Source of the DNA: Halichondria panicea
Lineage: Eukaryota; Porifera; Demospongiae; Suberitida; Halichondriidae
Direction: 5' to 3'
DNA: 64,000 nucleotides
Assembly: GCF_963675165.1 (NCBI RefSeq)
Contig: NC_087383.1
Location: 3,440,979 to 3,504,978, forward strand
Each line of letters opens with the position of its first letter. Positions within the stretch are counted from its first letter, which is position 1. The position numbers and the translations under genes were made by a program. Below the pieces are notes generated by a model, which saw only the letters and a list, made by a program, of their open reading frames with translations, had not been told where the DNA came from and ran no database searches. Below, in pieces: positions 51,278 to 64,000 of this stretch.

Positions 51278-54200
51278 ATGGACAATATTAAAGTAGCAAT
51301 TCGGGTTCGTCCTCTCTTGCCCAAGTAAGTAAATTTTTTACACGCTCAACTTCTATCATAATTTTTTTACTAATAATTATTCTATCAGGTTATTGGACAC
51401 ATGTAGAAAAGTTTTGCTTGATTATATGTGACACACGGGTCTACAAGCATCCTATTATTTCCCTATCTCTGTACCACACACACATACAACCCCCCCCCCA
51501 CACACACACACACACACACACACGCAGAGACCATGGTCACAGTGAACAGTGGGACACAACTGATGAGAGAGTAACTCCAAGAAATCCACCACACACACCC
51601 TACTACTTCGGTACGTTGAGTGGAACAAGCATGATATCTAGTGGTCCAATTGCACACTCAAGTGTTTTTACTAGTGTAAGTGTACAGTACTGCGGTTCAC
51701 TGCTCTCCCCTGTGTAGATCATGTGTTTGGGACCTCGGCCACAACAAGCACACTCTATGAGAAGCTGGCTGAGCCCATTGTAGAGGGGGTCATGGATGGT
51801 ATCAATGGTGAGTCCTGTAGCGGTTTCCTAAACTGTGGGTGGGGAGTCTCATCCAATGCAGTAGACCAGAGGAGGTATCACATTTGTGAGTCAAGAATAA
51901 GACCCACATTCCTTATTATCTCCAGGTCAAAGTTCAAGTGCGTGTTACTGCCAAACACAATCTGAGCATTTATAGATGCCAAGAGTCTGATTCGTGCACT
52001 GTTATCTAGGTTATAGCTAATAGCTATATCAACCATCTTTAGAATATTCAGGAGGGATGCCTGGAGTTGCCAGGAGTATCACTTCGTTTGATGTGCTATT
52101 GAACTTGATCAGGATACCGTATTACTAGAATGTTTTGCGAGCATTAAACATTTGCAAACTTTGCGAGGGTTAATCAATTCGCAATAATAAAATCCGTAAA
52201 ACCTAAATTATTACTGGTAAATACACACGATCCTTGCCAGAGCGCAATAGTTAGATCGTAAAGGGTCAATTTGTCTGCTGATCTGGCTCATTTGCAAAGG
52301 TTTTTCACCAGCAAAATATTCTAGTAATACGATAATTATAGTAAGGAATGTGGGGCTCAAGACTCACGGATGTCGTACCTACTCTGGCAGTAGACAGTAC
52401 ATGTGTTGCACCTAAATTAAGACCTATGGCTTACATTACAGTATGCCCACAATCCTCTATACAATACTGTGGACTGTAGTTGTTAATGTTTAACAAAAGT
52501 TCTCCTTTTGTGTAGGCACCATCTTTGCTTATGGTCAAACAGCCAGTGGCAAGACATTCACCATGATGGGAGAAGAGCCTCATCACCCGGGTGTCATCCT
52601 GAAGGCAGCCAGCCACATATTTTCCTTGATTCAAGAGGTAATTAAATTGTGCAGCCAGTCCAGTGCTGTAAAATGTTAAACAATAAAGGTGCCACTCGCC
52701 AACCTTGAATGATCTAATTGTGTGCCAAATGAAGCAATCAAACTATTTATCCTGCAATATAAAATGAGGCGTAATTTTTCCCGCTGTACGCCAAAGAAAT
52801 GTTGTGCTTTTATTACATTTTTACGGTAGGCACATTACTTGATATATTTATGCTTATAGCGTCCTGACAGAGACCACATCATTAGAGCTTCTTATCTCGA
52901 GATCTACAATGAGGTATGGTGTATTGACCCCAGTGGGATATGTAGTATAATTTATACTGCGTGTGAGCATGTGACTATCACATGACTATTTCCCCTACAG
53001 TCCCTCACAGATCTTCTCCGTCCCGAAAAGAAACACCTGAACCTGAGGATAGGAGAAATAGACGTGAGCTAGTGTACTGTATAATTATAGTGTGTTCATC
53101 TTTTCTCTAAACAGCGCTAGTATAGTAATTTCTAAAACTAATCGCTCTGTTCTGCAGGGGAACTTTGTAGTCCACGGATTGTCTGAGGAGCCGATTTCCC
53201 TCCCCCAAGATATTTACCAGCTCATTGAGATCGGGGAGAGTAAGTCACTATCACTTGTGCACCTTTGTGAACCTGTCTGTCTAATGTGATCACCCTGTAG
53301 CCAGGTTAATGGCCCAGTCTCCATAGGGTTGGTTTCAACCTGTGTTAGCATAATTATGATGGTATGCCCTAGGGTGACCTCTCAGCCTTAGCCTTGTGTG
53401 TACATGTACATGCATGCTGCCTGTGCACCTGATGTGCTGGTAATGTGTATAATCTCTTCTGCTCAGAGAACCGCACATTTGGATCTACCAATGCTAATGA
53501 GCACAGCTCAAGATCACACACAATATTCAAGCTGACCATTGAGAGCAGGGTTAGAGATGAGGAACTCAGTGATGGCACTATCAGGGTGGCCTCTCTGGTG
53601 AGTGGGTTGGGCAAGTGTGTGCGTATACAGCAGTGAATAACGTCAATCTACATAAGTAATGACAGGAGTGCATGAATGTACATGTACGTATAATTAATTT
53701 ATGTGGACACTAATTGACATTACATTTTTTTTTACATGACATTGTACACGTAAATTATATGTATGATATATCTTTGCCTTCTCTGTGTTCAGAGCCTGGT
53801 TGACCTGGCTGGGTCAGAGCGTGTAAGTGCTACAGGTGCCACAGGGAAGCAGTTCAAAGAGGGGACGAACATCAACCTTAGCCTCCATGTGTTGGGGAGG
53901 GTCATATCAAAGTTATCAGAGGGAAACACGTGAGTTACTATAACAGTATGCACTGCATGCATGGTAATGTGTAGTCCTTCGATCGATCTTTATTTAATAT
54001 CTACAGCTCTCTGTTGCTTTTCTCTCCCTAATAAGTGCAAGTGGTTTGCATAACAGTACTCATACTCTAGTCTGAGGGCAGACCACCCCCTTGCACCTGA
54101 TCTGATACATGTAGTTGCCAGGGAGTGGTCTAGCTGGCATTTAGAGTTGGTTCAGTTTTGACATCTCCAATCAGATTCGCAAGAATCCAATTAATGAGAC

Positions 54201-54728
54201 TCCACCTTACGGAGGAGGTTGGTAGTCCTTGGTCTTTGTCGTTTTTAAAACTTTGCCAGTAGGCAATGGCTAACTTACCTGGCTGCTATATTGTACATGT
54301 ATATACGGTATTACATGTACAATTCTCCCCCAGGGGTCATGTGCCTTACCGTGATTCAAAGCTGACCAGTATCCTTCAGCCTTCCATTGGTGGAAACTCT
54401 AAAACGGCCATTATCTGCACGATAAACCCATGTGAAAGGGGCGAGTCTATCTCGACTATTCAGGTATGGATCGAGTGCACCTCTTTATTTATATGTGTGT
54501 GTGTGTGGTCTGCCAATACTTCTGTTAGGAACATGGCACGTTAGACTGTCCTACATCTAACATTAATGTTGTCAATGGTTGAACTGCTGATGAAAATCTG
54601 TTCTGCTTAATGTGTAGCTAGACTACAATGTACACACATCATGTGTTGTTCTGTACTGTATATTGCATCTTCTCGTGCAGTTTGCCAGCAGGGCTAAAAG
54701 AGTAAAAAATCAGCCAGTAGTCAACGAG
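51278..54728 (+). other. Kinesin motor domain and neck (exons 1-11)
   Basis: About 329 residues form a complete head. The P-loop GQTASGKT is at residues 80-87 (exon 4). Switch I NEHSSRSH is at about 191-198 (exon 8). Switch II DLAGSE is at 228-233 (exon 9). Microtubule-contacting YRDSKLT is in exon 10, and the neck [16 protein letters not shown] is exon 11. All ATP- and microtubule-binding signatures are intact, so the motor should be active. [13 protein letters not shown] and the F-A-S-R-A-K-x-V-K-N neck are most like kinesin-7. A (CA)n tract abuts the acceptor of exon 2. Confidence 0.9.
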
Positions 54729-57700
54729 GTCAGTTACTCTCATTTCAGCCTAGTCCTCACTTCCCTAATGCTATGTTTGTCCAGTTGGTATGTGGAGAAG
54801 ATGCTCTTCGGAAGAAACTTAAATCACTGGAGAAAGAAAATGGCCTGCTCAAGCAAAAACTGGAGGAGGTACTATTCACATAATTATATAATTATGTATC
54901 TGTATACAACATAGCCTCGAATCCACGCCGATTAAAATTTTAATCGACGTGGCTATATACAACACTGTACTGTCTTATATAATAATTAATGGTTTCTTTT
55001 GCAGAATTTACCTGATCAAGAGTGTGAGACTGTAAGTCCATGCATGACCTTTATATACAATCATGTACTAGTGTACTATTTATGTATGTTCTCTTACCAT
55101 GGCAGTTGACACAGCAGCTGGCCCAGTTTGAAACCCAGAAGGTAATAATTATATATACATGTATATAGTTATACATGTACGTAGTACACTGCTTGTCTGA
55201 GTAGCATTGTGTATGTAGTGTATGCCAATAACATGTTGAACTTCATGTATTTATGCACTACATGTAGCTCTCTGTCTATACTAATTATGTGTATTGAAGC
55301 TCTTTTCTCAATCTCAACTTAATCTTCTGTTGCTTGCAGCTACACCTCGAGGGTAAGCTTAGAGTTCTGGAAAATTGGATCGTGCGGACCAACAGCTGTG
55401 ATAAGTCAGCACTACCAAAGGTGAGCTCAGGTTGTACAGTAAATTACAATGTACAATGTCATGTATGTGGTACAAAAACTACATGTAGGGTGTATTTCGT
55501 GCTTGTATACAGTTTGGTTGTACGATATTCTAGTGCTTTACAATTCTCATTCTCCTCACAGCAGCTGTCCAGACGGAGGACCATGTGTCCGAGTCTTCTC
55601 TCACGTGACACTACATCCCACCAGCCCTGGTCTGAGGCCCCTCCCCCCACAACCTCCTCTCTCACTTTATCATCACTCAAATCCTCGACCAAGTCCGTAT
55701 CCTTTGCTCCAAGATCATGTGACGAGTCCTTCAAAGTGCACTTCACTCCTACCAGGTTCATGAAGTTCCTGAATGAGCAGGAGGTGAGAGGAGGAATGGT
55801 GTGCTCAAATTTCATATTTTGTTTTGGTGACCCTTTACCTGTCAATGTGGTAAAATACACATTATTTGGGAGTTGATCTTTACCAATTGCATACCCACCT
55901 TCTATATAGGTTGGCAGTAAAAAGAAGTCCAATGCTCTAGACGGTGGCAGAGGGCGTCCCTCGTTCCTACCCTCACCAAAATGCTTTGAGGACTCACTCA
56001 ATGACACCCAAGAGGTGAGAGATACACATGTGCAGTGTTTATAACTAGACTACATGTATTTAGTGCCCCTTAGTTACAGTAGATCTACAAGCTAGGCATT
56101 ATGCATGTACATTTATAGAATTGTGTGTATGTACAGTCCACTCAGTTCGATACTCACTCCGAGTCATGTGTGGTCAAGGAGGAGGAGGAGGAGATTGCTC
56201 TTCTCAGGCGTGAGTGTGCTGACCTTGTGGAGGAGAGAGCAACCTTACGCCAAGAGGTGAGTGTCTCACTCAATTGTGTTTTCACTGTTTAATGTACATG
56301 TACATGTATGGATTTGAGTGCATATGCATGTGGGATTTGATCTATGCCTAATTGCCAATTTTATTGTGTACTGTGTGATTGCGTACACGTACATTGGTAC
56401 TGTACTGTACTGTATGTCTTAGTAAATAACTCTATATAGTCTACATGTATATGCCCTAACATGTATTGCACGGTTCAACTATACAGGCTCAGCTAGCATG
56501 TATACGTACCTCTGTCTAGGATAATACCGCTAAGTTATTTAGTTATTGTACGTATGTCGTGTATTCTCCACATGGCAGCAACTTATTGATGTTCCCTCCT
56601 GTCAGGTTGAGGAGAAGGGTGAGACCATTCGAGGTCTGGAAGATGACCTGCTGAGGGAGTTGGAGGAGAAGCTGCTCGAGAAGTCTCAACTCATGGACCC
56701 AGATGTCATAGCTGAGCTGGGGAGAGAATTGGAACTGGCCAACAGCAAGGCAGATGTGAGTTTGGCTTTCTTGTAGTATATGTACACTATTGACTGTAGT
56801 GAGTCAGAAGTGTTAGACACTTAATTCGCTATACCAAAAGGACTCACTGTAAATCCTGTTGTGACGATACACCTACACTTGCACCTGTGTGTGTACATGA
56901 CAATCTATTACCCAGTCTGCTGTGCAAGAGAGACTTGTGATGGAAGAAGAGCTCAAGAAGGCACTGGATCGCTGTAAGGAGCTGGAGCAGAGCAGTGTGC
57001 CTGCAGTGGATGGGGTGGACATATTCGAGTGTTACGAACAGGAGAAGGAAGAGTACTTGAAACAGGTGATAAAGTGGTACAGTAAGGAGTGTTTTATGAA
57101 ATATATAGGGCAGAGTGCCTATGGCTTAGGCGTAATTGCAATGCGCGTGTGCATCTTTGTGACATTGTTTTTGTGCATGTGTTCGATGTGGTTCGACTCT
57201 TTCGAACTACACCAGTACATGTAACCATGCTGATTCAGGTAGCTATGTTAGTGATGAATGTTTGAACTGGTACAATGTAGTGACGTACGGGAGTACTGAT
57301 TTCAGTTTCTGCCCTCTCTCTAGCTTGCTGCCAATGAGAGGCAGATTGCCTCACTGACAGAGGACCATTCTGCTGCACGGAGGAAGGTGGATAAGATGAA
57401 GGAACAGTATGACAATGACCTGCAGTTCCTACAGGAATTAGTCACCTCTCTCAAGGCTGGGCTGGCAGCTGCCAAGGCCAGCATTGAGGTACACCGTGAA
57501 ATGAGTGTGTAGACCACTACTAACACGATTGTGCCCCATTTTTGTGTAGGAGACTGTTGTTGCGAAGAAGAGTTTAGAGTTGAGGCTGACAGAAAGTGAT
57601 CAGAGATTACAGGTCGCTAAGGGGACCATCGACAGTCACAGTCAGAAGCAAGTTGCAGCACAGGTTAGTTATGATGATGCACCAGCTGTGTACCAGTACG

Positions 57701-60700
57701 TCGTGTACATGTTTATGTGTGCATGCACTAGCTACACGCTGGCTTTATTCGAGGCACGTATTTACAGCTGAAGTGCACAGGAACAATGGAAAGAGTCATT
57801 TAAGTATAAACCTAGAATTATGATTGGGGTTGTTGCTTATACTGATCCTAGCCCCAAAACCACATCACAGGAGCCATATTTTCTAAGCCTCCAGGCATCT
57901 TGTTACTTGCGCAAAAAGCCAAAGTTATTTCCCATTTAATTTCCTCAGTGTCTTCACGAGGAGAATGTCAGTCTCCGTCAAGATAAAGATACTCTTGCTA
58001 AAGAAGTGTCTGATCTCAAGGAGGAGTTGGTCGTGGCAGAGCAGGAAAAAGACAAGGCTATGAACGAAAAGAAAATCGCTGAGGACTTTGAGACTAAACT
58101 GGAGATTGAGAAGACTAAACTGCTCAGAGAGGTACATGTATAGAATGATATACATGTACATATGATTTTCTGAAAGCTTAGAAAGAAACCTTTCAAATGA
58201 TGTTGTGTTTCGATTTAAAAGTTCATTAGGGACTTAATTTCTCATTATTTGCCCTTGGACCCATGGGCTATAATAATGTACCTATATAGCGGGAAATTTT
58301 GTGAGGTGCAACATTTCGCGTTTTTCGAGGGCAGAGCAGGTAACCCGGAAATTTAAACTCCCACACACTGGTATTTCACATGCAAACCTATTGGTGGGTA
58401 TGGTTTCCTTGCATTGAAACTCGAATATTAGAACCCATAATTATTACAACCCACGAAAATGTCTGCTGAGGGCTCTGAAGCCAAAGAGCGAAAATGTGCA
58501 CCCGCAAAAGTTCCCGCTATACAGTAATCATACACTGTACATGTAGAACATTACACACTTAGGTTAATGCCTTGTAATCAATGTATACAGTATTCGGTGT
58601 TTATGCATATACTATGAATTTACATGTGGGTACTAATTAACTACTTACGTACATTTGTATGTTGCCTTCTTCAGCTGAATGGGAAGAACAGTCGGATTGA
58701 AGAGCTTGATGGGGAGGTCGTGTCGGTACAGGCACAGTTGGACCATGTCGCCTCCACTCTTGATGTAAGTGGATCGATGATCATATTTTTATATTTGTGC
58801 CTACAGTACATGTTCGGAAATTTAAATTGTGTGTAACCCCTTTCATATACAGGGTCTCCACCAAGAGAAGGATGCTTTGATTAAAGAAGTGTCTGATCTC
58901 AAGGAGGAGTTGGTCGTGGCAGAACATGAAAAAGACAAGGCTATGAAGGAGAAGAAAATCGCTGAGGACTTAGAGACTAAACTGAAGATTGAGAGGACTA
59001 AACTGCTCGGAGAGGTACATGTATAATTGAAAATGGTATTCCTGCATGTACACTGTACATTATTCTATATACATTAAAATGACTGTTGATCGAGTACATG
59101 TAGTTACATGTTGCATACTTTTGATCACACTAGTCAATTAATTCGTGGCCTGTATACTTCCCATTGAAGTCGCGCCATTTAATCAAGGGAATCACATAAT
59201 AAAGCATAACTGACATTAAAAATTGGTCAAAACTAATGCTCGCGTTATGTTACCATTCTTCAGCTAAAAGGGAACAGTCGGATTGAAGAGCTTGATGGGG
59301 AGGTCGTGTCGCTACAGGGACAGCTGGAGAATTCCGTCTCCATTAATGTCAGTTATAGAAGGATCTTCATTTATGTACATGCGTATCAGTATTATAATTA
59401 TATTCGTGTACTTTGTACTTACATGATGATAATTATGTGCCTGCATTGTACATAGCGTATATATGGAAGGTTCCTTGTAAACATAAGTCATATAGGGTCT
59501 CAGCCAAGAGAAGGATGCTTTGATTAAAGAAGTGTCTGATCTCAAGGAGGACTTGGTCGTGGCAGAGCAGGAAAAAGATAAGGAGAGGAAAATTGCTGAG
59601 GACTTTGAAACTCAACTGGAGATTGAGACGACTAAGCTGCACAGAGAGGTGCATATAGTGTACATGTAGATTTACATTAGCCTCGATTCCAGGCCGCTCT
59701 CACTAGAGGGCCTGGTAACCACCATTTGCGCATGGGTGGATTCAATAGTAAATTTGTTAGTAAACCTCTTTGTATTAACCAAGTACATACATTTTTATGT
59801 ACTTAAATTTGTAATTCAGCAGCTACATGTACTGTACATGTACATGTATACGCAGTGTTCATGCATGTTACATGTACACACGTTACATTCTTTAGCTGAA
59901 GGGGAAGAACAGTCGGATTGAAGAGCTTGATGGGGAGGTTGTGTCGCTACAGGCACAGCTGGACAATGTCACCACCACTCTTGATGTTAATGTCAGTTAT
60001 ACACGTACATTGTAGAAGGATCTTCGTATAATTAATGTATTATACAGTCTCTTACTACATGTACATGTACATTTAGCTTGTACTGGTGATGCATGTGCCT
60101 GCATTGTACATGCATGTATTACTTGTAAGACATTGTAAAGAAAAGTCTTATACAGGGACTCAGCCAAGAGAAGGATGCTTTGATTAAAGAAGTGTCTGAT
60201 CTCAAGGAGGAGTTGATCGTTGCAGAGCAAGAAAAAGACAAGGCTATGAAGGAGAAGAAAATCTCTGAGGACTTTGAGACTCAACTGGAGATTGAGAAGA
60301 CTAAACTGCTCTGTGAGGTATAATACCTACATGTATAATAATTATACATACGTGTACTGTACATAAGATAGTTAAGTTTTGGTCAACGCTTTGTAACTCA
60401 GCAGCTATAGTACATGTAATAGTTGTATCATGGATATCAGGCTGACCACAAGGGATTTGTACCCTGGAGTATCCTGAGAGTTTCAATGGATATTCCTTAG
60501 TGTCAGAGCCCATCACGGTACAAGTACATGTACAGTACATGTATGCAGTGTTCATGCATTTACCCTGACTGCATGTACTACTGTAGTTACGTATGTTACG
60601 TTCTTCAGCTAAAAGGGAAGAACAGCCGGATTGAAGAGCTTGATGGGGAGATCGTGTCGCTACAGGGACAGCTGGATAATGTCGCCTCCACTCTTGATGT

Positions 60701-63700
60701 AAGTGGATGTGCCTAGTTGTATACGCACAGTACATGCACAGTACATGTTCGGAAAGTTGAATTGTGCCGTAACTCTTTTTCCTGCATGTATAGGGTATCA
60801 GCCAAGATAAAGATGTTATGACTAAAGAATTATCTGATCTCAAGGAGGAGTTAGTCATGGCAGAGCAGGAAAAAGACAAGGCCCTGAAGGAGAGGAAAAT
60901 CGCTGAGGACTTGGAGACTAAACTAGAGATTGAGAAATCTAAACTGCTCAGAGAGGTACATGTGTAGTACATATATATTGAATGATGTTCTAATCATAAT
61001 GTTTGACTTGATCGTTAACTGTTACATGCTACTCGATTTAGTAGCTTTATGTACGTAAATCTACTGTACTGTTCTGTTTATAATGACTGGGCAGTCTAGG
61101 CTCCGCTAGGCCTGTTGCTATACCTCATACATGTAGACTACGTGTATGTAAGTTATCGTATCATAATTATATCGCATACTTTTGTATTCCGCGTGGCCTA
61201 GCCTGTACTGTCTCATTTTAAATCATGCCATTTAAACGTTAATCACATAACAACAATTTCGAAGCCTCAAAATTAGTCAAGAGGCATAATTACTTTATAT
61301 ACTGTACAGTACTTACTTTCTACAGATAAAAGGGAAGAACAGTCGGATTGAAGAGCTTGATGGGGAGGTCGTGTCGCTACAGGGACAGCTGGACAATGCC
61401 GCCTCCTGCACTCTTGATGTTAATGTCAGTTAGAAGTGTTGTCGTATGTACTGTAGATGTACATGTTTGGAAGGTTCCTTGTAAACATAAGTCATGCATA
61501 TAGGGTCTCAGCCAAGAGAAGGATGCTTTGATGAAAGAAGTGTCTGATCTCAAGGAGGAGTTGGTCGTGGCAGAACAGGAAAAAGACAAGGCTATGAACG
61601 AAAAGAAAATCGCTGAGGACTTCGAGACTAAACTGGAGATTGAGAGGACTAAACTGCTCAGAGAGGTGCATGTACATGTATATTAAAAATGGTGTTCTGA
61701 TCATGTACATGTATGTTTGACTTGATGAATAACTGTTTCACTAGTAGCTACATGTATCTGACTCTACTGAGATTACGCCCACCCCCACTTTTGATTATAA
61801 GTTCCTGCATATTGTATGTTAATTTGCCTCGAGAATACACCTACCAGGAAGTGTAGCATTTATCTGGTTTAGCAGTTTCTGGCGTAAGCTGGTTAATATC
61901 TGAAGGCCAATAATTATTGCTCCTACATTGTATTTGCATAAGGACAATCGTCTCTGAATCTCTGTTGAAGACTCAGTGACAGTGACAAGGAAAATACTTC
62001 TCATGCAGAATCTTGACTTGTATACATTCTATAGCTATATCATGCATTTATTCGTTGTATTTTAAGGCAGGCCTCAGACGACGCTGACAGATAATACTTC
62101 CGTAGTTTCCTAGGCAACACCTGGGTGGGCGAGACAAAAGTACCTGCACCTGTAGCATGCATTGAGAGTGGGCGTAATCTTGGTAGAATGCGGTGCATTA
62201 ATTTTGTATCTATATATACATGTACATGTATAGTTTACGGTACTGTTTTGTACATTGTACATTTAAAATGACTGTTGATTAGTTACCGTACGTATGCTTG
62301 TGTACTGTAGCACTATGGTATGTTACATTCTTCAGCTAAAGGAGAAGAACAGTCGGATTGAAGAGCTTGATGGGGAGGTCGTGTCGCTACAGGGACAGCT
62401 GGAGAATGTCGCCTCCTGCACTCTTGATGTTAATGTCAGTTAGAAGTACTGTCATATACATGTAGTCAGTATACTGTACATGTATTGTATATTATAGTCT
62501 CTCCTATGTACATGCACTACATGCACTAGCTTGTATTGACGATGTGCCTACAATGTGTATATGGAAGGTTCCTTGTAAACATAAAGTCATACAGGGTCTC
62601 AGCCAAGAGAAGGATGCTTTGATTAAAGAAGTGTCTGATCTCAAGGAGGAGTTGGTCGTAGCAGAGCAAGAAAAAGACAAGGCTATTAAGGAGAAAAAAA
62701 TCTCTGAGGACTTCGAGACTAAACTGGAGATTGAGAGAACTAAACTGCTCAGAGAGGTATACATGTATGTATATAGTTACACATTCAACGCTTTGTAATT
62801 CAGCTACATGTATAAAGTCATGCAGTGTTCATGCATTTACCCTGACTGTTACATGTAGTTACATGTACTAGTAGTTACGTATGTTACATTCTTCAGCTAA
62901 AAGGGAAGAACAGTCGGATTGAAGAGCTTGATAGGGAGGTCGTGTCGCTACAGGCACAGCTGGAGAATGTTGCCCCCACTCTTGATGTTAATGTCAGTTA
63001 GAAGTATTGTTGTATGTAGATGTGCAATATTATAGTCTCTATACATGTACATGCACTAGCTTGTATTGACGATGTGCCTACAATGTGTATATGGAAGGTT
63101 CCTTGTAAACATAAAGTCATACAGGGTCTCAGCCAAGAGAAGGATGCTTTGATTAAAGAAGTGTCTGATCTCAAGGAGGAGTTGGTCGTGGCAGAACAGG
63201 AAAAAGAAACAGCTATGAAGGAGAAGAAAATTGCTGAGGACTTCGAGACTAAACTGGAGATTGAGAGAATTAAACTGCTCAGAGAGGTATACAATGTACA
63301 TAGTATAATAAAATTATTATGTAGAATGAAAATTATACATGTATATTATAGTTACACATTCAACGCTTTGTATAACTCAGCAGCTACTCGTACATGTATA
63401 TACATGCAGTATACGTGTTCATGTATTTACCTTGACTGTTGCATGTAGTTACGTATGTTATATTCTTCAGCTGAAGGGGAAGAACAGTCGGATCAAAGAG
63501 CTTGATGGGGAGGTCGTGTCGCTACAGGGACAGCTGGATAATGCCGCCTCTACTCTTGACGTTAATGTCAGTTAGAAGTATTGTTGTACATGCACTATAG
63601 CTTGTATTCATGATGTGCAGCCTACAATGTGTATATGGAAGGTTCCTTGTAAACATAAGTCATACAGGGTCTCAGCCAAGAGAAGGATGCTTTGATTAAA

Positions 63701-63829
63701 AAAGTGTCTGATCTCAAAGAGGAGTTGATCTTGGCAGAGCAAGAAAAAGACAAGGCTATAAAGGAGAAAAAAATCTCTGAGGACTTTGAGACTAAACTGG
63801 AGATTGAGAGAACTAAACTGCTCAGAGAG
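51278..63829 (+). CDS. CENP-E-like kinesin (kinesin-7), 5' part; gene continues past window
   Basis: Exons up to the repeat array: 51278-51324, 51528-51610, 51718-51807, 52516-52637, 52860-52913, 53001-53063, 53158-53239, 53467-53597, 53793-53929, 54334-54463, 54681-54728, 54785-54868, 55005-55031, 55106-55141, 55340-55420, 55562-55783, 55910-56014, 56137-56256, 56606-56755, 56916-57065, 57324-57488, 57550-57663 and 57949-58131; then eight exon pairs. About 1,487 codons are open and in phase. The start at 51278 gives [12 protein letters not shown], the canonical kinesin beginning. The N-terminal motor, short neck and very long coiled-coil stalk fit CENP-E, the plus-end-directed kinetochore motor. 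The C-terminal domain is outside the window, so assignment rests on the motor and the stalk plan. Confidence 0.88.
54912..54955. mobile_element. 44-bp minimal palindrome of the TAGCCTCG family in a kinesin intron
   Basis: TAGCCTCGAATCCACGCCGA pairs with the following TCGACGTGGCTA around AAAATTTTAA. It looks like a strongly deleted family member. Confidence 0.6.
58284..58521. mobile_element. MITE in a kinesin intron, reverse-oriented relative of 16131-16330
   Basis: The ends TATAGCGGGAAATTTTG and TTCCCGCTATA are inverted, and the interior matches the TRPA intron element in reverse complement (for example GGTGGGTATGGTTTCCTTGC). It lies between the founder-like exon and the first cassette. Confidence 0.6.
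59679..59735. mobile_element. Single end of a TAGCCTCG-family element in a kinesin intron
   Basis: TAGCCTCGATTCCAGGCCGC followed by GAGGGCCTGGTA matches the left end of the element at 28809. No right end was found nearby. Confidence 0.5.
61761..62190. mobile_element. Inverted-repeat element inserted in the fifth cassette interval
   Basis: ACTCTACTGAGATTACGCCCAC on the left is mirrored by GTGGGCGTAATCTTGGTAGA on the right. It explains why this cassette spacing is about 1,010 bp instead of about 560-720 bp. A related left end occurs at 46799 in the last intron of TRPA copy B. Confidence 0.7.
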
Positions 63830-64000
63830 GTATATGTATACAGTAATACTGTACGTATGTAGAATATACAGTGTGTACATGTACAGTTACACATTAATTT
63901 TGGTCAACACTTGGTAATTCAGCAGCTACATTGTACATGTGCATGTACATGCATTTACTGTTAGATACATGTACATGTACTATAGTTACGTACGTTATGT

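Follow-up and report, generated by a model that had tools for sequence, protein, structure and literature searches.

Vertebrate CENP-E, a kinesin-7, has an N-terminal kinesin motor followed by a long coiled-coil stalk, and the gene described here is laid out in the same way. In human CENP-E, according to the sections of PMC8905165 available to us, the stalk spans residues 341-2054 and the tail runs to residue 2701, with over 20 discontinuous coiled coils predicted in stalk and C terminus. A review (PMC7475649) puts the CENP-E dimer at up to 230 nm and holds that both the length of the stalk and its flexibility are important to CENP-E activity; chromosome alignment is reported not to be rescued when the stalk is shortened or made rigid, with the reservation that such constructs may be otherwise defective.

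The present gene differs from human CENP-E in that 819 of its 1753 modelled residues come from one array of related units. KNL1/Spc105, another kinetochore protein, also consists of repeated modules, the MELT arrays, whose copy number is the subject of PMC7292645; MELT motifs are short binding sites in the excerpts at hand, whereas the array units look structural. Among the papers that searches of open-licence literature listed, none was seen to report tandem exon units, whether in CENP-E or in another kinesin, and the available parts of two CENP-E papers (PMC6028960, PMC11827601) do not mention such units.

The amplification mechanism itself is of a known kind, since tandem one-phase exon arrays have already been described. 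Tetrahymena leucine-rich-repeat genes, in the portions of PMC6564038 that were available, carry head-to-tail 90-bp exons with a single intron phase, which are ascribed to unequal crossing over and possibly retrotransposition. The array shares with them its tandem, head-to-tail exons and uniform phase. In Tetrahymena, as set out in those portions, the repeats are single 90-bp exons with phase 2, which code for leucine-rich-repeat protein and occur in thousands of genes; the array here, by contrast, involves one gene, exon pairs, phase 0 and a coiled coil, with no copy elsewhere among the genome matches listed. Genes that splice tandemly duplicated exons in a mutually exclusive way, as covered in the accessible text of PMC9013439, share the tandem duplication within one gene, but the array consists of nine two-exon units, all of which can be joined in frame.

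We consider it likely that, in a CENP-E (kinesin-7) gene, a two-exon block, short exon then long exon, was tandemly duplicated to nine copies behind a lead copy, and that tracts were later exchanged among the copies. Homologous exons and introns stand in tandem with symmetric phases, as in other tandem exon duplication arrays, and the locus is a genuine case, and a good one, of an exon pair amplified in tandem in a motor of kinetochore type. With much of its stalk made up of some nine blocks, each of 79-87 residues, this natural gene opens a direct route to the question of length and function, through comparison of related species and removal of units.

The motor gene and its exon array

The window, that is, the whole 64,000-nt stretch of DNA analysed, corresponds to C7:3440979-3504978 in a genome of 131.5 Mb and 39 contigs; adjoining stretches were joined to it with exact agreement across the overlap. 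The gene model was built by hand from reading frames and splice sites, with no transcript tie and with the last exon not fixed. It runs on the plus strand from 51278 and so far comprises 48 exons and 1753 codons, free of stops, with AG before and GT after at every modelled intron (Table 1).

Table 1. Features of the CENP-E-like gene and its exon array, in window coordinates (unit 9 in extended coordinates)
Feature	Position	Strand	Remarks
Motor-domain exons E1-E11 (11 exons)	51278..54728	+	gene model; first ATG 51278; Pfam Kinesin 1.1e-105; best PDB chain 1t5c, 'Centromeric protein E', 2.6e-90
Upstream stalk exons E12-E22	54785..57663	+	introns phase 0; 8 of 11 compared with the cassette, none beyond heptad-preserving shuffles
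Lead long exon A0, 183 nt	57949..58131	+	5' end 21 nt longer than in the usual long exon; z 28.4 versus unit
Unit 1, 84 aa	58675..59014	+	B1 58675-58764, A1 58853-59014
Unit 2, 79 aa	59264..59648	+	B2 59264-59347, A2 59496-59648; A2 lacks 3 aa
Unit 3, 86 aa	59896..60317	+	B3 59896-59991, A3 60156-60317
Unit 4, 84 aa	60609..60955	+	B4 60609-60698, A4 60794-60955; internal intron of same class as in unit 1
Unit 5, 87 aa	61326..61665	+	B5 61326-61424, A5 61504-61665; 61417-61531 (115 bp) identical to unit 9
Dispersed repeat with inverted ends	61752..62198		intron before B6; 36-nt inverted ends, 75% complementary
Unit 6, 87 aa	62336..62756	+	B6 62336-62434, A6 62595-62756; 62518-62659 (142 bp) identical to unit 7
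Unit 7, 86 aa	62897..63286	+	B7 62897-62992, A7 63125-63286
Unit 8, 86 aa	63471..63829	+	B8 63471-63566, A8 63668-63829
Intron leading to unit 9	63830..64000	+	continues past window end
Unit 9, 79 aa	B9 64008-64103, A9 64183-64323	+	past window end; L010 2987-3302

The Pfam kinesin motor lies within the 357-residue N-terminal part. The best PDB matches of the motor were two CENP-E chains, 1t5c (306.3 bits; which we take to be human) and 6m4i (304.7 bits), followed by KIF3B at 261.8 bits, a gap of 44 bits; the spliced motor was 49% identical to 1t5c over 334 residues and 43% identical to KIF3B over 343. The array locus also had the highest summed CENP-E score, 305 bits versus 216 or less at 30 other kinesin loci of the genome, in a comparison tilted toward it by a slice of 6000 nt set against pieces of 3165-3942 nt, several of them from one gene, and covering fewer than all kinesin genes of the genome. 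It favoured CENP-E over KIF3B by 58 bits, whereas 27 of the 30 other loci favoured KIF3B. In an exon-by-exon genome search with the CENP-E motor the array locus, whose motor exons are short, was not ranked first; its listed exons were 66, 63 and 56% identical. CENP-E has a kinetochore-binding tail and a C-terminal prenylation signal; in the present model, with the last exon not fixed, 187 aa of the C-terminal part matched no Pfam family at E 0.01. On the strength of the PDB ranking and of the top score among 31 loci, the motor gene is supported as a kinesin of CENP-E type (kinesin-7), in agreement with the preliminary description of this DNA.

That description had counted eight short/long exon pairs at 57949..63829. 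Both ends are exact, being the first base of A0 and the last base of A8, and eight pairs do lie between them, but a ninth follows beyond the window; the full array comprises nine B+A pairs behind A0, at 57949-64323 in extended coordinates. The window itself holds eight short exons (B1-B8, 84-99 nt) and nine long exons (A0-A8, 153-183 nt). Throughout the array the short exons stay within 84-99 nt and the long exons measure 162 nt, except A0 (183), A2 (153) and A9 (141). The nine units encode 758 residues, 79-87 each, and are followed by unlike exons of the same gene, C1-C7.

Outside the array, none of the searches confirmed a similar sequence. A whole-genome search with one long exon found at least 10 places, all in the array (E 1.0e-74 to 1.4e-41), and an 86-aa composite unit found at least 19, again all in the array; among 118 genome_contigs and 40 viral_contigs pattern matches there were no confirmed relatives. 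In a comparison of the unit with 16 exons, aimed at finding an ancestral single copy, the array members A0, B1 and A9 matched, and the other 13 included no convincing candidate, the lowest heptad-preserving p value being that of C2 (z 2.3, p 0.033). The upstream exon E18 (z 2.3) reached p 0.022 with plain shuffles but p 0.103 with heptad-preserving ones. The lead exon A0 contains the 9-mer AATGTCAGT, which equals the end of seven of the nine short exons plus the donor after them, immediately 5' of the part of A0 that can be aligned with other long exons. Judged from this 9-mer, A0 may preserve a state lacking that short-to-long intron.

All 19 array introns are in phase 0, as had been claimed, but so are all 12 upstream stalk introns (after E11-E22) and 39 of the 47 introns of the whole model; phase 0 thus characterises the stalk as a whole and is no signature of the array. 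Lengths divisible by three are found in 19 of 19 array exons; each of these exons is followed by an intron, and of those 19 introns five have such a length. Since all boundaries are in phase 0 and all exons are multiples of three, gain or loss of a block keeps the frame, and the units are frame-neutral as originally proposed. Such stalk-wide neutrality would have eased amplification.

The same features are compatible with a reading in which the array is a bank of splicing cassettes, the number or choice of units varying per transcript and splicing setting the length of the stalk. Any skip of an array exon would remain in frame, and tandem exon duplications have been linked to mutually exclusive splicing (PMC9013439, in the part available). 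A G at donor position +5 is absent from all ten long exons, A0-A9 (58132-63835 and past the window end), versus 20 of 28 exons outside the array that have it; the long-exon donors are possibly weak, so that some units might be skipped. The trait was perhaps inherited from one ancestral unit, however, in which case it counts once; the units are so alike in protein sequence (dN 0.035-0.129) that there would be little reason for choice among them; and frame-neutrality is equally compatible with constitutive use. We therefore regard transcript-by-transcript variation as unlikely, and prefer the reading in which all units would be included in the mature mRNA.

The stalk encoded by the array

The preliminary description had the units extend a coiled-coil stalk, and coiled-coil scoring bears this out. 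Within the 819 residues of the array, a COILS-type score (with a reconstructed matrix) passed the threshold of 0.5 over 97.7%, compared with 66% for residues 331-747 and 1.2% for the motor; 50 shuffled arrays gave a mean of 40% and a maximum of 57%. The sole dip within the array, at residues 895-913, falls in the short exon of unit 2 (B2). A Pfam search with two units joined gave six weak matches, all below the curated cut-offs; the best was CALCOCO1 (4.4e-06), and the CENP-F leucine-repeat model was among them (5.4e-04).

The heptad register is continuous through the junction in units 1 and 4 (84 residues) and jumps in units 3 and 5-9, in which the short exon is two residues longer. A flexible point at the register-jump junctions is possible. 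Fully extended, the nine spliced units would form a two-stranded rod of up to about 110-113 nm (at 0.1485 nm per residue), and they would lengthen the rod between motor and tail, with a presumed mechanical role. The stalk is not exceptionally long: the entire model has 1753 residues so far, to be compared with the extents of the human stalk and tail given above.

Divergence and probable exchange among the units

The cassettes had been called near-identical, which overstates their likeness: nucleotide identity is 84-96% among long exons A0-A9 and 81-95% among short exons B1-B9. Their introns had been said to match, and in local alignment this holds for groups of the short-to-long introns (79-164 nt), namely those of units 1 and 4 (82% over 82 bases), 5 and 9 (identical) and 6, 7 and 8 (95-98%). 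It does not hold for units 2 and 3, which are more distant, or for the long-to-short introns (140-670 nt), which are more diverged; those before B7 and B8 are 94% alike.

Among the nine units, pooled pN was 0.077 versus a pS of 0.177, a ratio of 0.43. Changes in exon length all keep the frame: A9 lacks seven residues, or one heptad, and A2 lacks three, a loss that coiled coils tolerate as a stutter. The ratio and the frame-keeping length changes suggest translation of the units, with moderate constraint acting on them.

Between units dS averages about 0.2, with values of 0.17-0.23 at lags 1 to 8 and no distance trend, and none of the six branches of the exon tree was supported. Adjacent units are not as a rule the most alike: of four matrices, similarity was related to proximity in that of the short exons only (r 0.32, p 0.031), and the clearest neighbour pair is formed by the introns of units 7 and 8.

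In three of the 36 unit pairs, synonymous and intron divergence conflicted significantly after Bonferroni correction; in the other 33, with about 46-55 synonymous sites each, they did not. Units 5 and 9 differ at 0 of 79 intron positions versus 11 of 49 synonymous sites, and units 7 and 8 at 2 of 96 versus 13 of 55. Units 1 and 5 show the reverse, 22 of 75 intron positions versus 2.5 of 53 synonymous sites, and their introns are not recognisably alike (z 0.6). Short-tract exchange can give conflicts in both directions, which simple duplication and mutation do not readily give. The longest exact tracts, 142 bp between units 6 and 7 and 115 bp between units 5 and 9, both cross an intron/exon boundary. 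A PHI-type recombination test on the nine units (37 sites) was not significant (p 0.125), and Mantel tests, which have low power here, found exon and intron similarity unrelated, as either conflict or noise could produce. On the claim of gene conversion or exchange among units the tests are mixed, the conflicting pairs and exact tracts speaking for it and the PHI-type test giving no significant signal; taken together, the conflicts point to conversion-like exchange between units. The array is a case in which exons and introns of tandem units record different histories.

Intron similarity was assessed by local alignment with shuffles, and intron differences were counted for 12 chosen unit pairs and then for all 36. 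A global aligner with cheap gaps was rejected: 253 unrelated intron pairs of the gene averaged only 12% different, which renders its intron columns, and the Mantel tests dependent on them, meaningless. A GENECONV-like permutation test (1501 permutations) placed pairs involving unit 2 at the top and gave units 5 and 9 a global p of 0.007; we consider it confounded, because many of the polymorphic columns without gaps are intronic and result from the distinct introns that units 1 and 4 carry, and it was not relied on.

In these shuffle-controlled local alignments, units 1 and 4 have matching internal introns (z 14.6), and the introns before B2 and B5 match with z 5.6, compared with a control maximum of 4.6 among 114; nearly as good a match (z 5.4) links the intron before B2 to the one before B6. 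The 1/4 and B2/B5 matches, both three units apart, are a weak sign of duplication of a multi-unit block. We picture the units as products of tandem duplication, in which unequal exchange was probably at work and a block of several units was perhaps copied once, some of them having since swapped short tracts of about 115-142 bp by events resembling conversion.

Copy number and neighbouring sequences

It had further been proposed that unequal crossing-over or gene conversion is actively changing the length of the stalk, which could vary between individuals; on this reading unequal crossing-over would be ongoing, and unit number would change rapidly and be polymorphic. The exact 115- and 142-bp tracts imply that some exchange is too recent for differences to have accumulated, and the introns of units 7 and 8 are 94% (before the short exon) and 98% (inside the unit) identical in local alignment. 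In their exons, however, these neighbours are only 88% (short) and 91% (long) identical, and conversion tracts leave copy number unaffected. As no whole-unit pair is nearly identical, and given the level of dS without a distance trend, recent change in copy number is not supported, and we hold continuing turnover of units to be improbable. An extension of the idea, by which unit number would act as an evolvable dial of length, with the count of units, in the genome or after splicing, and through it the reach of the stalk differing between individuals or close species under selection by chromosome or kinetochore size, strikes us as speculative and quite improbable.

Expansion of one or two units by the assembler would account for the repeated sequence but is scarcely credible, because the nine units differ in their exons and in intron lengths in both classes (the exception being the identical 79-nt intron of units 5 and 9), a dispersed element sits in one intron, all units are open and in frame, and the array lies at 3.5 Mb inside a 7.36-Mb contig; no copy is an assembly duplicate, since each has exon and intron differences of its own. 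Tandem duplication followed by exchange of tracts remains our preferred account.

The dispersed element in the intron before B6 had no copy in other units among the genome matches listed. Queried with 61774-62190, it gave at least 45 genome matches including itself, the others 66-92% identical to it over part of the element's length.

Downstream of the motor gene, on the minus strand, lies an RPE65-type gene (L010 7239-7457 and 9687-9854), with matches to Pfam PF03055 at 9e-08 and 0.0011, the latter below the cut-off. A third stretch, L010 9408-9647, had no Pfam match; by eye, a similar stretch seems to be present in L011 near 5500. Elsewhere, a COX1-like fragment (L043; C1:5280527-5280718) with two internal TGA codons was the only COX1 match among the matches listed, and is perhaps a nuclear copy of mitochondrial DNA.
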